From NCBI RefSeq assembly GCF_002224265.1, contig NZ_CP012881.1, positions 2,790,001 through 2,854,000 on the forward strand: 64,000 bases of DNA, written 5' to 3'. The position numbers and the translations under genes were made by a program. Shown piece by piece: positions 8,929 to 48,754 of this stretch (within the stretch, counting starts at the first letter, position 1; the number at the start of each line of letters is the position of its first letter). Origin of the DNA: Vibrio vulnificus NBRC 15645 = ATCC 27562. GTDB lineage: Bacteria > Pseudomonadota > Gammaproteobacteria > Enterobacterales > Vibrionaceae. The notes beneath the pieces were generated by a model. It saw only the letters and a program-made list of their open reading frames with translations. It had not been told where the DNA came from and did no database searches.

Positions 8929-10134
8929 ATGAGCCGTTCAAAGATTTTTGGTAGTACTTTGATTATTGCAGGCACCACAATTGGTGCTGGAATGCTTGCA
9001 TTGCCCCTTGCTTCGGCAGGGATTGGTTTTTCCACTTCCGTCATGATTATGATCGGCTTTTGGGTTTTGATGTCGTATACCGCGCTGTTGATGGTGGAGC
9101 TCCATCAAGAGGCAGATAGAAGTGCGACGCTGCACACGCTGGCGAAACAAATTCTAGGCACGAAAGGAAAATGGGTTGCCAGTTTTGCCATGCTGTTTCT
9201 GTTTTACGCGCTTTGCGCAGCTTACATTGCTGGTGGTGGTGCGCAGTTTGGTGAGCGCCTTGCCGCTTGGTTTTCCATCGAAATGGATGCCTCTGTGGCA
9301 ACGGTCATCTTTACCGTGATTGTGGCCGCGGTGGTAACCAGTGGTACGGCGACCGTCGATAGAGTAAACCGCGTTTTATTTGGTTTAAAAATGGTTGCCA
9401 TGGTCGCGGTGCTGTTCTTTCTCGCTCCTAATGTGACGGAGTCTTACTTGCTCAGCATGCCGATCCAACAAGGGTTGATTGTCGCGGCTCTGCCCGTCAT
9501 TTTTACGTCGTTTGGTTTCCACAGCAGCATTCCTGCTATTGTGAATTACCTTGATGGCGATACCAAATCGCTGCGCAAAGCGATTGTCATTGGATCGTCC
9601 ATTCCTCTGATTATTTATGTGTTCTGGCAACTGGTCACGCTCGGCGTGGTGAATCAAGAGGTACTGCTTAATAACTCAGGGTTGACGGCGTTGATTGCCC
9701 AGTTGGCCGCGAAAGTTCAGCAATCTTACTTAAGCCAATTGGTAGGCGTGTTCGCGGACTTGGCTCTGTTAACCTCATTTTTAGGGGTGAGCCTAGGTTT
9801 GTTTGAGTTTCTTGGCGATGTCATCAAAAAGAGTGGCCAGAAACAAAATCGCGTCATTCCTGCAGTGGTGACATTTACACCGCCGCTGATGTTTGCGCTT
9901 TTCTACCCACAGGGCTTCATTATGGCGCTTGGTTATGCCGCAATTGCATTGGCTGTTTTGGCGATTTTCTTGCCGGTGGTGATGGTAAACAAAGTACGTA
10001 AATCACCAGAGAAGCAGGGGAGTTACCAAGTGGCTGGTGGCCAACTAGCGTTAACGCTCACAGGCGTAACCGGGGTTGTGATTGTTGCGGCCCAGATCCT
10101 GATAACCGTTGGGGTTCTGCCTGCGTTAGGGTAA
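8929..10134 (+). CDS. Aromatic amino acid permease, TyrP/Mtr type (HAAAP family)
   Basis: An inner-membrane protein of 401 residues with about 11 hydrophobic helices. The first helix carries GTTIGAGMLALPLASAG, the signature of the hydroxy/aromatic amino acid permease family (TyrP, Mtr, TnaB), which imports tyrosine or tryptophan with protons. Overall it looks closest to TyrP. The candidate TyrR boxes upstream support control by aromatic amino acids and favour tyrosine as substrate, but tryptophan cannot be excluded. It is a monocistronic unit ending in a strong terminator. Confidence 0.85.
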   Translation: MSRSKIFGSTLIIAGTTIGAGMLALPLASAGIGFSTSVMIMIGFWVLMSYTALLMVELHQEADRSATLHTLAKQILGTKGKWVASFAMLFLFYALCAAYIAGGGAQFGERLAAWFSIEMDASVATVIFTVIVAAVVTSGTATVDRVNRVLFGLKMVAMVAVLFFLAPNVTESYLLSMPIQQGLIVAALPVIFTSFGFHSSIPAIVNYLDGDTKSLRKAIVIGSSIPLIIYVFWQLVTLGVVNQEVLLNNSGLTALIAQLAAKVQQSYLSQLVGVFADLALLTSFLGVSLGLFEFLGDVIKKSGQKQNRVIPAVVTFTPPLMFALFYPQGFIMALGYAAIALAVLAIFLPVVMVNKVRKSPEKQGSYQVAGGQLALTLTGVTGVVIVAAQILITVGVLPALG

Positions 10135-40261: not shown

Positions 40262-43069
40262 TTACTGAGTCACTAGACGCAACCCGCTAGGGAGTGCATC
40301 GCCAAACACGCGTTTAGACTCGCTTTCAGAAAGCTCTTTGACCTCTTCGACCAAGCTTATCCACGCGTCCGGCACTCGGCTCTGTTTCAGTTTGGTGAGC
40401 ACTTGTTGGCGGAAATCTTCAGAGATATCAAAGAGACGATCACCTGTTTTACGACAAATCATCACCGCAGCGAAGGCGATCATCGGTTCTTTTTGCCAGT
40501 TTTGATCCAATAGTTTCGGTAACCATTGTTCCGCTTGCTCACGTGGAATGACACGATGTTGGCTTGCGTAGAGCGGTGTACGAGAGGCTAAGCGGCCAAT
40601 TGCCCACCAGTGTGCTTGTTCAAATTGGTTTTGATTCAGTGCTTTGCTCAAAAACCAACTGGTTAGCAAAACTTTGTCTTCCACTTCAAGATGCTCTAGA
40701 GACGCGGCCAGTCGAACCATGGCTTCGTAGCCCATATCTTGAGCGGCTTTTGCTGTTTGTGGGTTTTTCATCGCGCCAGGGTGCAAGTACTTGGCAATGT
40801 CGGCAAGCAGCGTTTCTTGTTGCTCTTGGTTCAAACCACCAGCAATACGGCGCCAGAATACCCACCAATCGGTCCAACCTTGATGATTTTGGAACTGGAT
40901 TCCTTGTTGGTAGAGACCCCACACCTGCTCGATACGCCAAGAATCGGTTGCATCACCAAAACCCGGGCGAAGAGAAAAGCCCGCTAAGCGCAGCCAGTTC
41001 TTTTCGTGTTGTTCAGAGCGGCGACGACGTTTTCGGCCTTGTGCAAAGGCATCAAACAAGTGGCGTAGGGTGGTGAAGTCCCATTCATCTCGCTTGCCAA
41101 GTTTGCGTTCAAGCTCTTTGGCTAACACTTTGATCTCATTGCCTTCGCCACTTTTCTTGTTGCCACTATAGAGGCGAGTAATGAGTTCTTTGCACTCATT
41201 CAATCGTGGGTGAAGTGTGGCGTGTTCTTGTTCTTCCGCTTTTTTGTTGCGAACTTCAAACTCCAGTGCCCAACGTTTGTCCTCTTCTTCGACACTGACA
41301 CACTCCATCTTCAGGGTGCCGACTTCGGTCAATTGACAGGCGAGTTGAACTTCCACACGCTCTTTCTGGTTTGCTTCTAATTCTGCGCCTTCCCCCTGCA
41401 ATGTAACGATATACGGGGGAAGTGGGGTGAAGATATCAGGGTCGATGTCCGCCATGACGCCGTTTTGAATCGCCACATGGTGCGATAAGGCATCGTGCGT
41501 TGAAGTCAGCAGGTTAAAGCGTACAGGTTCACCAAGGGTGAGCGAGAAGCGTCGTCCAGTGAGACGAATTTCTTGTCCTTCTTCGGTGCCTTTTGCAAGC
41601 AAACAGAGTGCTTTGCCCATTTTGTTTTTTTCTTGCAGATGCAAAAAATAAGACCGAGCAGAACCGCCGCCGATTTTTAGTTGCGCACCGCGGCGGGCTT
41701 TGGCAAATGCGACGGCCCCTAATGCCACCGACCAATCGGGATGCGGGTTATCAAGGACGGTAACCGGTGCACCACGCCAGCGACCGAGCAACTCGGTCAT
41801 CCGCGCCGTGACGAGGTCACTGTTAAACACGCCGCCGTTCAACAACAGACCTACCGGAATGGCAGGTTGCTCACCCTTTGACTCTCCTAACGCAGCATGA
41901 GAGACTTGTTGGTGTTGAGATAAAAACTCGGCCACGTGTTTGCTCACTGCAGGATCGGCAACATAAGGCAAACCAAATTCGACCACGGCGCTGCGGCGTT
42001 TATCCGGCGTTTGAGTAAAATCAGAAAGCGGGAAGAAGCCGTCGAGGGCGATTTGATGAACTTCCTGTTTGTTCAAAGCGATGCTCTTGGTGCCGCCAAG
42101 CAGTTTGGAACCGCTGCCCAGCATGGTGATCTTCACTTCTTCCGGTGCCTTACTCGAGAGGAGTTGCTCTTTGGCTTTGCGTGTTTGTTGAATCAGTTTG
42201 GTGAGGCTGGCAGCATTGAGTTTTTTGCTTTGATTAAAGCGCTGCTCTGCTAAATGCGCGAGGGCCAAATCTAGGTTATCGCCGCCGAGCATGAGGTGTT
42301 CACCAACCCCGATGCGATCCAAGGCGAGTGCATCTTGGTTAAATTTTGCTTCAATCAAGCTTAAGTCGGTGGTGCCGCCGCCGACATCGCACACTAAAAT
42401 CAGCGGGATTTCTTTTAATAACTCTGCGGCACTGTGCTGGTGGCGAGCATACCAGTCGTAGCAAACCGCTTGAGGCTCTTCGAGCAGAAGCACTTGGCTT
42501 AAGCCTGCCAGTTGAGCGGCTTCGAGGGTCAGCTTACGTGCGGTTTCATCAAATGATGCCGGTACGGTGACCACCACCTCTTGGTCTTCAAGCAGATTGC
42601 CCGGGTGGCGATGATTCCATGCCTGGCGAATGTGATTAAGGTAACTGGCACTGGCAATAACAGGGGAGACTTTCTCAACATCGCTGACCCCGGCCCAAGG
42701 CAGTATTTCTGAATGGCGATCAACCGCTTGATGAGAAAGCCAGCTCTTAGCGCTTGAAACCTGACGCCCTTCCACCTTCGCGCCCAGTTCGCGTGCCCAT
42801 TCACCAATGATCACATTAGCAATGTCGCCAGCCACATTTTGGTTTTCCCACGGTAAGGTGAGATCGGCAGGCGCGATTTGCCCGTTGGCAGGGTGGTAGC
42901 GAAAAGAGGGAAGCAGCGGTTTACGAACCACTTCACCGGGGCCGATAAGCTGGTCAATATCGAAAAGGGAGACGTTGGATTGTTGTAAGTTCTCGGTCAG
43001 TTCGCAAAACGCGACCACCGTGTTCGTGGTGCCTAAGTCAATGCCGACAAGATAGCGAGGAGATGCCAT
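40262..43069 (-). CDS. Hsp70 family protein with DUF3731-like C-terminus
   Basis: A protein of 935 residues, longer than DnaK (about 640). The N-terminal half is an actin-like ATPase: LVGIDLGTTNTVVAF (phosphate 1), LVCDVGGGTTDLSLI (phosphate 2) and GLLLNGGVFNS (adenosine region) are kept. In place of a DnaK substrate-binding domain, the second half (from about residue 500) has a short beta part and then a large helical region with RHLFDAFAQGRKRRRRS, matching what I recall as DUF3731. It is the last gene of a three-gene operon. Client, partner J-protein and function are unknown. Confidence 0.8.
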   Translation of the reverse strand: MASPRYLVGIDLGTTNTVVAFCELTENLQQSNVSLFDIDQLIGPGEVVRKPLLPSFRYHPANGQIAPADLTLPWENQNVAGDIANVIIGEWARELGAKVEGRQVSSAKSWLSHQAVDRHSEILPWAGVSDVEKVSPVIASASYLNHIRQAWNHRHPGNLLEDQEVVVTVPASFDETARKLTLEAAQLAGLSQVLLLEEPQAVCYDWYARHQHSAAELLKEIPLILVCDVGGGTTDLSLIEAKFNQDALALDRIGVGEHLMLGGDNLDLALAHLAEQRFNQSKKLNAASLTKLIQQTRKAKEQLLSSKAPEEVKITMLGSGSKLLGGTKSIALNKQEVHQIALDGFFPLSDFTQTPDKRRSAVVEFGLPYVADPAVSKHVAEFLSQHQQVSHAALGESKGEQPAIPVGLLLNGGVFNSDLVTARMTELLGRWRGAPVTVLDNPHPDWSVALGAVAFAKARRGAQLKIGGGSARSYFLHLQEKNKMGKALCLLAKGTEEGQEIRLTGRRFSLTLGEPVRFNLLTSTHDALSHHVAIQNGVMADIDPDIFTPLPPYIVTLQGEGAELEANQKERVEVQLACQLTEVGTLKMECVSVEEEDKRWALEFEVRNKKAEEQEHATLHPRLNECKELITRLYSGNKKSGEGNEIKVLAKELERKLGKRDEWDFTTLRHLFDAFAQGRKRRRRSEQHEKNWLRLAGFSLRPGFGDATDSWRIEQVWGLYQQGIQFQNHQGWTDWWVFWRRIAGGLNQEQQETLLADIAKYLHPGAMKNPQTAKAAQDMGYEAMVRLAASLEHLEVEDKVLLTSWFLSKALNQNQFEQAHWWAIGRLASRTPLYASQHRVIPREQAEQWLPKLLDQNWQKEPMIAFAAVMICRKTGDRLFDISEDFRQQVLTKLKQSRVPDAWISLVEEVKELSESESKRVFGDALPSGLRLVTQ

Positions 43070-43127
43070 GACAAACCCTTGATTGATTTAAAAACGGCAC
43101 CCTTCGGATGCCGCTTGTTTTGTTCGA

Positions 43128-45035
43128 TTATTCTGCCAGAGAGGCATCGTCACGCACGTCAAATTCCACGTGCCATTTTTGACCATTGTCCGCCGCAATC
43201 GCTTCTAAATACAGCGTGCCAAGTTCAGTCACGCGTGAGGCTAATGTCACCGGCACCACTTCGCCTTCACGGCGACCTTCGGAAACCGGTAACGTTACTT
43301 GAATTTCTGGTAACTCTTCAAGCTCATCTTGGCCCCAATGGTCCAAATGTGTTCCTGCAAGATCGTCGCGACGAACCGTTGAGCCAAAGAATTGGAAGTT
43401 CACTGGTTGGCCGATGATCAAACCAAACTGCTGGCTTGGTACGTCGACACTGGTGCCTTCTTCCATGCCAAACGGAGCCACACACAGTGCTTCCATTGGA
43501 GGAGCCATACCTGGAATGGCAGGCATCGCGCTCTCGATACCGACATAATAGCTTGAAGCAATACCACCGCGGATACGTACACCTTGACCACGACGCACGG
43601 CGCCATAGTAAGCCGCGCCGCTCGCCACCGCGAGATCCAAATCGACGCCGGTGAGTCGTTTTGCCATCTCTGCATCAGCGTCAAGCAACCATTCGTTGAT
43701 GGTCTCTTCCAAACGTTCTGCTAATAGCGATGATTTCAGCACACCACCATTGAACAAAATCGCGGTCGGTTTGATGAAATCGACAGTGGCTTGTTGAGCC
43801 ATGCCCGGCATTCCGCCAACAAACGGGTTGTAATCTTGTGCAGGTACCGCTTCACCGTTGGCATTGGCTTGCTTCGACAAGAAAGCCGCAATGTGGCGAG
43901 TGATGCCTGCGTCTTGTGCATAAGGTAGGCCCATCTGGGTTAGTGCACCGCGGTTACGTTGTACTGGGTGTTCGGTGATAGCGACTTTAGGGAAGAAGCC
44001 ATCGACGAGCATTTGCTGCACTTCTTGCTGCGTCAGCTCGGTTTTCAGTGTTGCGCCGAGCAACTTAGAACCGCGGCTTGGCACGACAATCGGTACCGAT
44101 TGCAGTTCGGCATCATTGAGCAGCGCTTCTTTCGCGTCACGACAAGCGTGCGTCATGGCTTGTACTTGCCAAGGTTGCAGTTCTTTGCCTTCCTGAGCCA
44201 GTTTCATCTTCAAGCTGTAGGCGAGGGCAAGATCCATGTTGTCACCGCCCAGCAGAATGTGTTCTCCGACAGCGATACGTTTGAGGGTCAGATTACCTTC
44301 TTCTTCGGTCACTTCCACCAAAGAAAGGTCAGTGGTACCACCGCCGATGTCCACCACCAGCACGATATCACCAACGGTGACTTCATCGCGCCATTTGTCA
44401 TTGCTGTTGTCGATCCAGTTATAAAGTGCCGCTTGAGGCTCTTCCAACAAGGTAAGATGGACAAAACCCACATTGCGCGCTGCTTCTGCAGTCAGATCGC
44501 GCGCCGCAGGATCAAACGACGCTGGTACCGTAATGGTCACGTCTTGCTCTGATAGCGGGTGATTTGGTTGTGCGTGATCCCACGCCTGCTTTAGATGCTC
44601 TAAATAAAGCTCGGTGGCGCGCAATGGTGAGACTTTTTCAATCTCTTCTGGGCTGCCTGCAGGCAAAAACGCATCACGGCGATTCACGCCACCATGGCAA
44701 AGCCAAGATTTCGCACTGGCCACCAAACGCAAAGGCGTTTTGCCGCCCAGATTACGGGCGATCGCACCGACAAGGGCAGTCGGTTCTGTCGTCCATGGCA
44801 ACACGCGTGATGCAGGGTTCATCTCATGCTCATGCGGCTGGTAAAGAAAAGAACCAAGCTGGTTGCGAGACTCAACGGTGCCAGGCGCCGTCAATTGTGG
44901 AATAGCCATCACTTGTACGCGAGCTTGCTCATCCTGGGTATCCATGAATGACATAACACAGTGCGTGGTACCTAAGTCGATACCAACGCTGAATTTTGCT
45001 ACTTGCTCAGTTGCGGGTGTCATCATCGTTTCCAT
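43128..45035 (-). CDS. Second Hsp70 family protein
   Basis: A protein of 635 residues with a complete actin-like ATPase domain: FSVGIDLGTTHCVMSFMD, LVVDIGGGTTDLSLVEV and AILFNGGVLKSSLLAER. The C-terminal 130 residues (from GLIIGQPVNFQFFG) form a short beta-rich part with no lid helices of the DnaK kind. It differs strongly from the neighbouring 935-residue protein, so the two are not a recent duplication. It starts on the base where the upstream DUF2760 gene stops (TAATG), so the two are translationally coupled. There is no J-domain or GrpE gene nearby. Confidence 0.83.
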   Translation of the reverse strand: METMMTPATEQVAKFSVGIDLGTTHCVMSFMDTQDEQARVQVMAIPQLTAPGTVESRNQLGSFLYQPHEHEMNPASRVLPWTTEPTALVGAIARNLGGKTPLRLVASAKSWLCHGGVNRRDAFLPAGSPEEIEKVSPLRATELYLEHLKQAWDHAQPNHPLSEQDVTITVPASFDPAARDLTAEAARNVGFVHLTLLEEPQAALYNWIDNSNDKWRDEVTVGDIVLVVDIGGGTTDLSLVEVTEEEGNLTLKRIAVGEHILLGGDNMDLALAYSLKMKLAQEGKELQPWQVQAMTHACRDAKEALLNDAELQSVPIVVPSRGSKLLGATLKTELTQQEVQQMLVDGFFPKVAITEHPVQRNRGALTQMGLPYAQDAGITRHIAAFLSKQANANGEAVPAQDYNPFVGGMPGMAQQATVDFIKPTAILFNGGVLKSSLLAERLEETINEWLLDADAEMAKRLTGVDLDLAVASGAAYYGAVRRGQGVRIRGGIASSYYVGIESAMPAIPGMAPPMEALCVAPFGMEEGTSVDVPSQQFGLIIGQPVNFQFFGSTVRRDDLAGTHLDHWGQDELEELPEIQVTLPVSEGRREGEVVPVTLASRVTELGTLYLEAIAADNGQKWHVEFDVRDDASLAE

Positions 45036-45679
45036 TACAGCTCAACCTCAGCGGGTGCGATGATCGAAGCGTCGTAGTTTTCCGCCAGTTTAGGTAGCGA
45101 CATCGCAGAAGCCTTCCAACCTTTGTGGATTAAGGTGCCGTTAAATGGCGCATTACCCGTTACGTTTCCGACTAAACGGATCGCTTGAGGGTTAAAACCT
45201 TCTTCAACCACAATGCGGCTCTCTTCGTCTTCGTTGCGGATCGCTTCGAGCGTCACGTACTCTTTCAGTACTTTTTGGCCACCGCTATGAATAACACGCG
45301 CTGCAGCGCCCACTTCTTCATCAGAGAATGCGGTGAGATCTTCTTGTAGGAAGTCAATCAAGCGAGCTTCTTGCTGCATGATGGAAAGCAGTTGCATCGC
45401 AGAATCAGTGGATGCGGTGGCAAGCTTAGATTGTACTTCCACCACTTTTTCAATCACTTTTTCAATCACTTTTTCAACTTCAACGATTTTCTCTACTTCG
45501 ACGATTTTTTCGACCGGTTTTTCGACTTCAACGATTTTTTCTACAGGCTTCTCAACCACTTTCTCGATCACTTTGGATTTACGAGAAACAGCCACTAGTA
45601 GTAATAAAACGCTCGACGCCGCTAGACCTGCGTGAAGCATATCGAACGTTTGAGGAATAAGGTTTAAATCAATGTTCAT
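45035..45679 (-). CDS. DUF2760 membrane protein with charged VEK repeat
   Basis: A protein of 214 residues: one membrane helix at about 15-31, then residues 37-83 made of short repeats of the type VEKPVEKIVEVEK, and then the DUF2760 domain (about 90-214). The repeat is a rigid, highly charged rod, probably a spacer. If the helix is an inner-membrane anchor, the domain would face the cytosol, where the two Hsp70-family proteins of the same operon are. It is the first gene of the operon. The function of DUF2760 is not known to me. Confidence 0.8.
   Translation of the reverse strand: MNIDLNLIPQTFDMLHAGLAASSVLLLLVAVSRKSKVIEKVVEKPVEKIVEVEKPVEKIVEVEKIVEVEKVIEKVIEKVVEVQSKLATASTDSAMQLLSIMQQEARLIDFLQEDLTAFSDEEVGAAARVIHSGGQKVLKEYVTLEAIRNEDEESRIVVEEGFNPQAIRLVGNVTGNAPFNGTLIHKGWKASAMSLPKLAENYDASIIAPAEVEL
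45431..45571 (-). repeat. Tandem VEK-coding repeat inside the DUF2760 gene
   Basis: About 47 codons made of 4- and 6-codon units (VIEK, VVEK, PVEK, IVEVEK). On the DNA it appears as imperfect tandem copies of TTTTTCAACTTC- and TTTTTCGACTTC-like units. Such arrays can change length by slippage in steps of whole codons, so the rod length may differ between strains. Confidence 0.85.
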
Positions 45680-45960
45680 GCTAATTTTTCTCTATTCGAT
45701 TGATTTAAAGGTGCATTGATTGGCTCGCGATAGACGACATAGACGGGCGAATTTGCGATTTGCACCTAGTATTAGACGTAAAAATGGTGACGAATATTAG
45801 CATATTCAAGCTGCTAGGCTGCAATAAATGCGAGATTGAGGCAAAATTTAGGGCTTGATTGCTGAAAAAAACAACATAACCGACTGGTGTACGATTAATA
45901 AGCTTGATGTTTATACGGTTATCGTGTTTATTGGCGATCGATTCGGTGATATTGAATTAA

Positions 45961-47520
45961 ATGGATTTGTTTGTGGGTCAACCTGTTTCTGTCTTTTCTC
46001 CCAAATGGTTGCGTAGGCATTCTGCCTCGCTTATCGCGTTTGTTGCGACGTTAGTTGTGACGGCAGTTTTCCTCTTTGTTGCCGCCAAAATTCAGCAGCG
46101 TTATACCACGACCATGTTTAACAACCTTGCACAGCGTCAAGCTGAATCATTGCGAGAGTTTGTGCAAAACGACTTGGATTATATAGGCTCGGGCGCTAAT
46201 TTCTTTTACTCCGTTGCGCCGGAAGACTGGGAGCGCTTTGAAGTCTTCGCTCGCCACACTGTGGCATCTTCAAAGAGTTTGATCGGTTTGCAGTGGATGC
46301 AAAAAGTCTACCCCGAGCAGCTTGAGCAGCATATTGCCCATGTTAGAGAAACCTTTCCGAATTTCATCGTTTTCACCGTTCCTAAAGATGGCCCCAAGAC
46401 CGAAGGGTACGTCTTTTCTGACGGGCGACCTATCTACATTGCCAGTGACATTTACCCACGAAGTGAAAAGAATATTGAACTGCTTGGCTTTTATTCGGCT
46501 CGAGTTCGTTTCGAGTTGATTCTGGACGATATTTTTAGCACTGGGCGGGCGAATGTTTCCGATAAAGTCCGTTTACTGCAAGATGGTTACGATCGCTCAT
46601 TAGATAAAACGGGACTGTTGGTTTATCACCCTGTATTCGACCAGCGCCGCGAAACCTTACTTGGTGTTGTGGTGGGGGTGATTCGTAGTACGGTCTACTT
46701 TGAAGAACTGGTGACGAAAACCGCGACGGAACTTAGCCTAGTGGTAAGAGTGACAGATTTAGGCTTTGATGCTGAAGATGACCCTATCCTTTACCAGAGC
46801 CCTCACTGGTCAAACATTAAAGGCACCGTGGTGAGTAAAGTGGTGTCGTTGCCAAATCGTGACTGGCAAGTGGAGTTTAAGCTGGAAAGAAGCCTATCCA
46901 AGTGGGATCGTGCTGTGTTAATGGGGATCGTGGTTATCGGCCTCATCATGGCGTCTTTAGTGGCACACGTGGTGAACTTGCAAACTCGCGAGAAGCAACG
47001 CCTTAACTATATGCTCAACGAAAAAACCAAAGAGCTGCAGTTTATGGTGGATCATGATTCATTAACTCAATTGTTGAATCGCCGCGCGTTTCGCCACGAT
47101 TTAACCGAGATGATTGATAAACAAGTACCATTTAGTTTGATCGGCTTTGATGTTGACCATTTCAAGCAGATCAATGACCAATATGGCCATTTAGGTGGGG
47201 ACGAAGTCTTGGTTGAAGTGGCAAGGATGATCAGTGCCTTGCTGCAAGAGGGCGACCGTTTTTACCGTTTTGGTGGTGATGAATTTGGTATTCTCTCTTC
47301 GGTGACTCAACCAAAAGAGCTGTCGTGTTACCTTGAGTCGATTCGAGAGGGGATCGAAATAACGGCCTGCTATTATCAAGAAACCCCAATTCACTGCACG
47401 CTTAGTATAGGGGCCGCGATACATAAAGATGAGGACGTGGAAGAGTTGATACAAAGGATGGATATTCAGCTTTACCGAAGCAAAAACAAAGGGCGAAATT
47501 GCGTGACAATTGCAGGCTAA
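45961..47520 (+). CDS. CHASE-domain diguanylate cyclase
   Basis: A protein of 519 residues: membrane helix at about 20-42, a periplasmic CHASE domain (about 75-290; SKSLIGLQWMQKVYP and LGFYSARVRFE are typical), a second helix at about 319-340 and a C-terminal GGDEF domain. FGGDEF (about 437-442) is intact, so it should make c-di-GMP. The RxxD inhibitory site is missing (QEGD stands there), so product inhibition by that route is unlikely. CHASE domains bind small molecules such as cytokinin-like or amino-acid-type ligands. It is a single gene. Confidence 0.88.
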   Translation: MDLFVGQPVSVFSPKWLRRHSASLIAFVATLVVTAVFLFVAAKIQQRYTTTMFNNLAQRQAESLREFVQNDLDYIGSGANFFYSVAPEDWERFEVFARHTVASSKSLIGLQWMQKVYPEQLEQHIAHVRETFPNFIVFTVPKDGPKTEGYVFSDGRPIYIASDIYPRSEKNIELLGFYSARVRFELILDDIFSTGRANVSDKVRLLQDGYDRSLDKTGLLVYHPVFDQRRETLLGVVVGVIRSTVYFEELVTKTATELSLVVRVTDLGFDAEDDPILYQSPHWSNIKGTVVSKVVSLPNRDWQVEFKLERSLSKWDRAVLMGIVVIGLIMASLVAHVVNLQTREKQRLNYMLNEKTKELQFMVDHDSLTQLLNRRAFRHDLTEMIDKQVPFSLIGFDVDHFKQINDQYGHLGGDEVLVEVARMISALLQEGDRFYRFGGDEFGILSSVTQPKELSCYLESIREGIEITACYYQETPIHCTLSIGAAIHKDEDVEELIQRMDIQLYRSKNKGRNCVTIAG

Positions 47521-47609: not shown

Positions 47610-48140
47610 ATGAACCACAACCGAATTGTTTGCTTTGATTTAGAAATGTGCTGCTGGAACGAAGATGGCGTAGGTCGCACAGGGGAAATCATTGAAATCG
47701 GTTTAGCAGAGATTGATTTGCTCAAAGGTGAAATCGTCAAGCGCGCTCAGTATTACGTTAAGCCCGAACACGATGAAGTGTCGCTATTTTGCGCTGAGTT
47801 GACAGGGATTACGCCACGTAAGATTGAAAAGCAGGGTAGGCCGCTGGCTGAAGTGATTAAGTCGATGATCAAGAACTTTGGTGGCAGCAATAAAATCTAT
47901 GCCTCTTGGGGGCGTGATGACCGAATCCTTATGCAAGAATGCCAAGAAAAAGGCATAGATGCGCCATTCAATGAGTTCATTAATATTGCGACGTTGTACC
48001 GAATTCAAAATCGCTTGAAAGATAAGCGTATTGGTCATCGAGCTGCGCAAGAAGCCAAAGGCATAGAGTGGGAAGGGCGTCAACATTCTGGGTATGTGGA
48101 TGCTTATAATCTCGCTAAACTGGCATTAACCATGTTCTAA
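47610..48140 (+). CDS. DEDDh 3'-5' exonuclease
   Basis: A cytosolic protein of 176 residues, an isolated exonuclease domain of the KapD/ERI-1 type. The catalytic set is visible: D10 and E12 (CFDLEM), D103 or D104 (GRDDR), H159 and D164 (HSGYVD). Such enzymes trim RNA or single-stranded DNA 3' ends using two metal ions; the natural substrate here is unknown. A good terminator follows. Confidence 0.85.
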   Translation: MNHNRIVCFDLEMCCWNEDGVGRTGEIIEIGLAEIDLLKGEIVKRAQYYVKPEHDEVSLFCAELTGITPRKIEKQGRPLAEVIKSMIKNFGGSNKIYASWGRDDRILMQECQEKGIDAPFNEFINIATLYRIQNRLKDKRIGHRAAQEAKGIEWEGRQHSGYVDAYNLAKLALTMF

Positions 48141-48236: not shown

Positions 48237-48683
48237 CTACTTATCGAGTACTTGCAGTTTGGCGCGTATAAAGTCGCTGTGGTCGACATAAAGCAGTTCA
48301 GCGGTTTTACGAATGACGGCGTCTTCCAGTGGGTCGATCTCGCCATCAGCGTGGGCAACTTCCCACATGCCTTTAATCAAATCAAAGCGGACTTCTTGAG
48401 ACAACTCTCTAAGCTGAGAGGTGAAATCATACAAAGAGGCCGATTCAGCGACACCGCTTTGTGCTTGCGTAAGTAAGGCTTCTACTTGAGTATCGTCTAG
48501 ATTGAGTAGGCGTTTGAGTAATTGCCTTTTAACGGCTTGCTCACGCTCATCGATTTGGTAATCGGCACCGGCGACTTCACAAAGTAGGCTCGCAATGGCC
48601 AAATTGGGGTTGGTCGCTTTGTGCTTACTGAGGTCAGAACCCTCAATAAGCTCCTTAAATAATGAAGTTAATACATTAAACAT
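48237..48683 (-). CDS. TerB-like protein
   Basis: A soluble helical protein of 148 residues from the ATG at 48683, which has GGTGA 5 bases upstream. Two copies of the TerB helix pair are visible, ADYQIDEREQAVKRQLLKRL and ADGEIDPLEDAVIRKTAELL, each with the conserved Asp and Glu that may bind metal. The family is named for tellurite resistance, but isolated TerB-like proteins occur widely without that role. No ter genes are nearby. It is a single-gene unit. Confidence 0.8.
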   Translation of the reverse strand: MFNVLTSLFKELIEGSDLSKHKATNPNLAIASLLCEVAGADYQIDEREQAVKRQLLKRLLNLDDTQVEALLTQAQSGVAESASLYDFTSQLRELSQEVRFDLIKGMWEVAHADGEIDPLEDAVIRKTAELLYVDHSDFIRAKLQVLDK

Positions 48684-48754
48684 AGTGTTCACCGGCAAAC
48701 GAGGTTAACTACAACATGAAGTCATTTACGCCATTTTACAAGGTGTGAGGAAGA

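Follow-up and report, generated by a model that had tools for sequence, protein, structure and literature searches.

An operon of a DUF2760 protein and two divergent Hsp70-like ATPases in Vibrio vulnificus: a candidate heat-shock-linked chaperone module

We analysed a stretch of 64,000 nucleotides from Vibrio vulnificus NBRC 15645 = ATCC 27562 (contig NZ_CP012881.1, positions 2,790,001 to 2,854,000; hereafter the window), which carries an operon encoding a 214-residue DUF2760 protein and two Hsp70-like ATPases of 635 and 935 residues. On balance, we favour the reading that this operon encodes a heat-shock-linked, often membrane-tethered chaperone module of two Hsp70s with DUF2760 as their partner. 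The arrangement of the trio across genomes is far beyond chance, and co-inheritance, adjacency and an overlapping first junction support the view that the three genes act as a functional unit. A preliminary description of the window had proposed this set, and its coordinates, its protein sizes and the gapless succession of the first two genes (they share one base) proved correct (Table 1); the gap between the 635 and 935 genes is 58 nt. Pfam assigned the 214-residue protein to DUF2760 (PF10816; 2.1e-53, 179.8 bits, cut-off 25) and both larger proteins to HSP70 (PF00012) over the cut-off (8.6e-19 for the 635-residue protein and 8.1e-20 for the 935-residue one), the latter also matching DUF3731 (PF12531; 9.5e-99, 330.7 bits, cut-off 25). 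The closest protein matches to the trio were 98-100% identical, and those labelled Vibrio vulnificus 92% (DUF2760) and 98-99% (both Hsp70s) identical.

We determined how the three genes are distributed across 398 genomes from the window's phylum and 14 control genomes, calling the 635-type at E <= 1e-60. DUF2760 was found in 28 of the 398 genomes and the 635-type in exactly those 28, and DUF3731, which marks the 935-type, in 27 genomes, every one of them a DUF2760 carrier. In the sole carrier without DUF3731 (G026), the contig edge falls immediately past the 635 gene. Neither DUF2760 nor DUF3731 was present in any of the 14 controls. The trio was carried by 10 out of 10 genomes listed as the window's genus (the window counted) and, among the genomes listed, those without a match begin at 'same order'. 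By match coordinates, the DUF2760-635 spacing was 2-141 nt in 27 of the 28 genomes and 520 nt in the remaining one (G018), where an aspartyl-protease-like open reading frame (ORF) lies in between. The 935 match followed within 510 nt in 25/28 genomes, the longest spacing (G133) having space for a 155-codon open run. As for the exceptions, the 935 match lay 2.95 kb on in G082, with a Na/Ca exchanger gene between, was on a separate contig and broken in frame in G053, and was cut off in G026.

The co-occurrence of DUF2760 with both Hsp70 types, which the preliminary description had named as a point to check, was also borne out by gene order in a set of named genomes made up of the best 80 of at least 459 DUF2760 loci and biased to Vibrionaceae. 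The 635 gene lay downstream of DUF2760 in 80/80 loci, with an ORF junction of -1 nt in 41 and -4 nt in 35 of them (76/80), the remaining four being -85, -85, +3 and +12. These -1/-4 overlaps suggest translational coupling of DUF2760 and 635. The 935 gene was downstream in 71/80 loci, in one of these 640 nt distant. Two of the nine loci without it were cut by contig ends, and the other seven had 1.1 to 8.2 kb of contig remaining. Six of those seven genomes encode DUF3731 elsewhere, and where stretches were read the genes around it were unrelated; no DUF3731 was detected in the seventh, a Thiohalocapsa metagenome-assembled genome (MAG). A third gene that is retained though unlinked is stronger evidence for joint function than mere neighbourhood. 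Among the hosts with names are Vibrio, Aliivibrio, Photobacterium, Psychromonas, Moritella, Massilia, Duganella, Comamonas, methanotrophs and two Myxococcota MAGs. The laboratory strain Vibrio natriegens is listed with matches to both DUF2760 and the 635-type. At the Vibrio sonorensis locus (L052:10549-15390) both Hsp70 genes are in pieces, by frameshifts or assembly errors, and the DUF2760 ORF is intact.

Both Hsp70 types keep the actin-fold ATPase motifs, as had been noted before: the equivalents of K70, E171, D194 and T199 were invariant in 38/38 635-type and 39/39 935-type rows. With 40% identity in the ATPase domain and an alignable region spanning residues ~14-629, the two types are, judged by their sequences, paralogues with intact ATPase residues. 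Like DnaK and BiP, they combine a nucleotide-binding domain holding the catalytic residues with a predicted beta substrate-binding domain (SBD-beta), in the same order; they differ in that their ATPase domain shares 24% identity with that of the DnaK encoded in the host genome, the linker is altered and a DnaK-type lid is lacking, and no J or GrpE gene accompanies them in the window. The preliminary description had denied both proteins a DnaK-like substrate-binding domain, a claim that did not survive. The structure model of the 935-residue protein aligned with DnaK and BiP (Foldseek) through SBD-beta, and the 635-residue protein matched the 935 one through this region and then ended (alignment with 935 only), so that SBD-beta is predicted in the former from the model and in the latter by homology. 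What is missing from both is the DnaK-type helical lid, since the 635-residue protein stops after the beta region and the 935-residue protein has a longer helical region there. The large helical C-terminus ascribed earlier to the 935-residue protein was confirmed as a prediction (610-935, with DUF3731 inside) and could still be a distant relative of the DnaK lid. In one MAFFT alignment the DnaK linker VLLLD was replaced by SYYVGIE / SYFLxL, position N170 was Glu in every row of both types, and the position of Arg167, the J-domain contact residue of DnaK, was Arg in only 2/38 635-type and 17/39 935-type rows.

The DUF2760 protein of the window has a single predicted membrane helix (14-32) with Arg/Lys after it, and because of these residues its folded domain is, by the positive-inside rule, probably cytoplasmic. 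Such a domain behind one membrane helix fits tethering. In the structure model, the predicted local distance difference test score (pLDDT) was mostly <50 in the linker, and a well-predicted domain started at about residue 90. The preliminary description had spoken of a membrane protein with a rod-like VEK repeat; the helix and the VEK stretch (residues ~34-84) are there, and the folded rod could not be upheld because pLDDT was <50 across much of the stretch (38-43, 50-53 and 58-82). We then compared the N-termini of 50 DUF2760 proteins, the one of the window and 49 hand-chosen from 108 loci, using a simple hydropathy cut-off. A membrane helix passed it in 30 of the 50. Among the remaining 20 proteins, 13 carried a motif like SF-x2-R-x3-A(F/I/V)G-x-FF, which was present in 0/30 helix-bearing ones, and some others had looser versions; this type of N-terminus looks amphipathic. 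Since only 30/50 proteins show a clear helix, membrane tethering by DUF2760 is likely in Vibrio and unshown in other hosts.

Upstream of the operon we identified a candidate sigma-32-like promoter (Table 1), the sigma-32 consensus being CTTGAAA-N12-16-CCCCATnT. Each of 44 Vibrionaceae upstream regions (the window and 43 loci) was scored for its closest fit to a pattern chosen beforehand, CTTGAATATGnTAnnAT, with a cut of 11/14. The cut was reached in 34/44 regions, this part of the element being alike by selection. The independent tail of the element had C at position 21 in 34/34 cases and CCC in 21/34, versus 6.8% for 11-mers drawn at random from these regions, counts that come from related loci and are not independent of each other. 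The window copy scored 12/14, compared to 13/14 and 12/14 upstream of the positive controls dnaK and grpE, and to 10 for hscA and 9 for dnaJ, in the same genome.

Expression data came from Vibrio cholerae, in which we infer that VC1373-1375 correspond to the trio from their names, the operon order and a V. cholerae DUF2760 match. The tables of PMC9201469 give VC1373-1375 as an operon with VC1374 as DnaK-related, and place VC1374 on a list of in-biofilm-repressed genes (1 hit). For a ribD mutant, a table of PMC5816637 gives a log2 drop of 1.04 for the DnaK-related VC1373, and the column concerned also lists ibpA, clpB, dnaK, dnaJ and htpX. In PMC5636140, a table on polymyxin B / vc1639 has VC1374, there named dnaK, at log2 -2.68, and the 'VC1374' found in PMC9608740 is the name of a strain and not the gene. 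PMC10328515 places HapR binding between VC1375 and VC1376 and reports that 'the VC1375 promoter' was activated both in vivo and in vitro; the start site that it lists nearest to that HapR site runs in the + direction, so that either VC1375 or VC1376 could be meant by it. The best match to a HapR site in the window was 13/22, no better than shuffles. In the V. metoecus locus (L058), the site reported in PMC10328515 was matched at best in 17/22 positions, at L058:9614, which lies ~390 bp ahead of position 10001. In Photobacterium angustum, a putative DnaK-related protein that may or may not be one of the trio is carbonylated after UVB (PMC3706606). Limited as they are, the data on promoter and expression indicate a chaperone role in heat shock. 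The preliminary description had left the choice between a chaperone and a signalling machine, and it is the chaperone half that gained from these data; no evidence for signalling was found.

Several observations weigh against a heat-shock-linked, membrane-tethered chaperone module. Regarding the promoter, 10/44 Vibrionaceae regions failed the cut, some of which (L061, L048) hold other sigma-32-like matches; no consistent element was seen outside Vibrionaceae; a score of 12/14 was also reached by 4 out of 400 random 300-bp stretches, none scoring higher; and the element, which fits sigma-32, could also be a plain extended -10 promoter. Regarding expression, the identity of VC1373-1375 with the trio is indirect, only VC1373 of the three genes passes the threshold in the table of PMC5816637, and non-heat-shock genes also fall in the same column. 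A clear transmembrane helix is missing in 20/50 DUF2760 proteins, so the membrane tethering proposed in the preliminary description fits the window protein, with its one predicted helix, and is not supported as a general anchor. As regards physical interaction, the structure predictions were of single chains only (DUF2760 and the 935-residue protein), and the DUF2760 chain had no Foldseek match to PDB at E <= 0.001. Finally, the literature searched, with most subscription papers and bioRxiv preprints outside it, held no functional study of the trio, in keeping with the earlier statement that the set has no characterised function, and neither the term 'DUF2760' nor 'DUF3731' occurred in any of its 5.39 million papers.

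The divergence of the two ATPases could be taken to favour a membrane-linked signalling or scaffolding pair, in which the Hsp70 fold, tethered by DUF2760, would serve as a conformational switch powered by ATP. The replaced linker, the Glu at N170 and the scarcity of Arg at the Arg167 position agree with this alternative, as does the CHASE-GGDEF gene that lies divergent to the operon in the window. We nevertheless consider it unlikely: SBD-beta is predicted in place, the promoter and one expression dataset indicate heat shock, and the trio has no other constant companions, the commonest other cluster being found in 32/80 loci.

Less probable still is the reading of DUF2760 as a diverged nucleotide exchange factor of the GrpE kind, which would make the trio a membrane-bound Hsp70/GrpE system. 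GrpE is a dimer whose helices are followed by strands. Its identity with DUF2760 was tested because the ends of the two proteins look alike by eye: FNP...QKGY...RPAMVMV of GrpE pairs with FNP...HKGW...APAEVEL of DUF2760, by eye and on a low-threshold hhalign path, and the DUF2760 model, helices and then strands, resembles the GrpE order. The profile comparison drew first on 16 and later on 37 GrpE sequences, and was controlled by shuffling the columns 60 times and by reversing the profile. The local hhalign comparison was not significant (P 0.17-0.39) and its score, 11.4, was below the mean of the 60 column shuffles, 12.1; a PF01025 search of the host genome reported one GrpE gene only, which was not DUF2760; and the single-chain DUF2760 model gave no PDB fold match. 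The likeness is thus one of motif order by eye, set against the lack of a significant profile or fold match, and the GrpE identity was rejected as unsupported. As a separate observation, several genomes carry a second, divergent GrpE, including 4/5 of those sampled from a genus (g101) that also carries DUF2760. Finally, a phage-defence module built on Hsp70-like proteins is very improbable, as the weak PADLOC PDC-M61B match in both Hsp70s (E 6.5e-7 and 1.3e-6, 85 and 94 residues versus a 588-long profile) is confined to part of the ATPase domain, as expected for any Hsp70, DUF2760 had no match, and the presence of the trio in 10/10 genomes listed as the window's genus makes it core there rather than a patchy island.

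A fourth member of the chaperone module was sought by blast clustering of neighbouring ORFs, by eye in the ORF lists of 20 further stretches and, as far as these were listed, of 16 named loci, and with Pfam on five neighbour ORFs outside the window. No recurring J-domain or other gene stood out, and no further ORF cluster occurred in more than 32/80 loci. As the preliminary description had remarked, no J-domain or GrpE gene is near the trio: the window had no J-domain match, the genome's five (four over the cut-off) all being outside it, and the one GrpE match of the genome (5.0 Mb, two contigs) is ~2 Mb away. The same genome also encodes, outside the window, DnaK- and HscA-like genes and two more HSP70-profile matches. 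In a Methyloprofundus MAG (L099:10769-13525, - strand), genes for a J-domain protein, a GrpE-family protein and a standard-type Hsp70 are clustered directly after the trio on the opposite strand; where the 935-type gene is unlinked, no such cluster lay next to it in the six stretches read, of which five were intact and one was fragmentary.

Table 1. Features of the DUF2760/Hsp70 operon, its surroundings in the window and genes inserted into it elsewhere
Feature	Position	Strand	Remarks
DUF2760 protein, 214 aa	45035..45679	-	short N-terminus, predicted transmembrane helix 14-32, V/E/K/P/I-rich linker ~33-85, conserved domain 86-214 ending IAPAEVEL
635-aa Hsp70-like ATPase	43128..45035	-	nucleotide-binding domain and SBD-beta-like region, no lid; own structure not predicted
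935-aa Hsp70-like ATPase	40262..43069	-	nucleotide-binding domain ~1-460, SBD-beta-like region ~473-602, predicted helical C-terminus 610-935 containing DUF3731 (685-932)
DUF2760/635 junction	45033..45037	-	DUF2760 stop codon 45037-45035 and 635 start codon 45035-45033, one base in common
Candidate sigma-32-like promoter CTTGAATATGCTAATATTCGTCACCATTT	45782..45810	-	overlaps extended -10 (TGnTAnnAT); begins 131 nt 5' of the DUF2760 start codon
CHASE-GGDEF protein, predicted diguanylate cyclase	45961-47520	+	divergent from operon; candidate promoter in the intergenic region
Exonuclease-domain gene	47610-48140	+	Pfam; cluster matching by eye near operon in 32/80 loci
TerB-domain gene	48237-48698	-	Pfam; cluster matching by eye near operon in 25/80 loci
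Aspartyl-protease-like ORF	L217:7870-8283	+	inserted within operon
Na/Ca exchanger gene	L209:10733-11833	+	inserted within operon

Among known systems, Ssz1/Ssb and Hsp110/Hsp70 are unequal Hsp70 pairs. The trio resembles Ssz1 of the yeast ribosome-associated complex (RAC) and Hsp110/Sse1 with Hsp70 in that an atypical Hsp70 is paired with a second one, one being lidless and one having an enlarged C-terminus, and the RAC core (6sr6_A) and Sse1 (2qxl) were among the Foldseek matches of the 935 model, ranking below DnaK. In contrast to those systems, both Hsp70s of the trio retain the catalytic residues and are mutual paralogues (40%), and no J-protein gene was seen in the operon. A further Hsp70 relative, the PRK11678 molecular chaperone (YegD), gave weak matches of 25.9 and 38.1 bits, to be set against a model of 450 positions and a cut-off of 331 bits.

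These results are explained most simply by a conserved chaperone module of three parts. On this view, the operon would encode a dedicated bacterial Hsp70-type machine composed of the lidless 635-residue Hsp70, the 935-residue one, with a large helical DUF3731 region in place of a lid, and the small DUF2760 protein. In most of its relatives the latter has an N-terminus that is hydrophobic or looks amphipathic, and this is followed by an extended linker and the conserved domain. The tight coupling of the genes suggests that DUF2760 binds the lidless Hsp70 directly, and the linker suggests a tether; where DUF2760 has a membrane helix, it would hold this Hsp70 at the inner membrane. The two Hsp70s may operate as an unequal pair, comparable to Ssz1/Ssb or Hsp110/Hsp70, on membrane-proximal or aggregation-prone clients, and in Vibrionaceae heat shock would raise the expression of the operon via sigma-32. 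DUF2760 may also stand in for a J-protein or a nucleotide exchange factor. Hsp70 systems are thought to require a J-protein and usually an exchange factor too. We offer, tentatively and as a rather doubtful extension, that DUF2760 represents a novel type of co-chaperone for Hsp70, which would anchor a J-protein- and GrpE-independent Hsp70 pair at the inner membrane and drive its cycle. The lidless member would regulate the DUF3731-lidded one or serve as its exchange factor, and bacteria would then have, in addition to DnaK and HscA, a third Hsp70 machine.

If true, these strictly co-inherited two Hsp70s and their one non-J partner, which are also found in several groups beyond the window's genus, would provide a tractable test for a bacterial chaperone machine using a different partner protein, and DUF2760 and DUF3731, two Pfam domains of unknown function, would become parts of one system.

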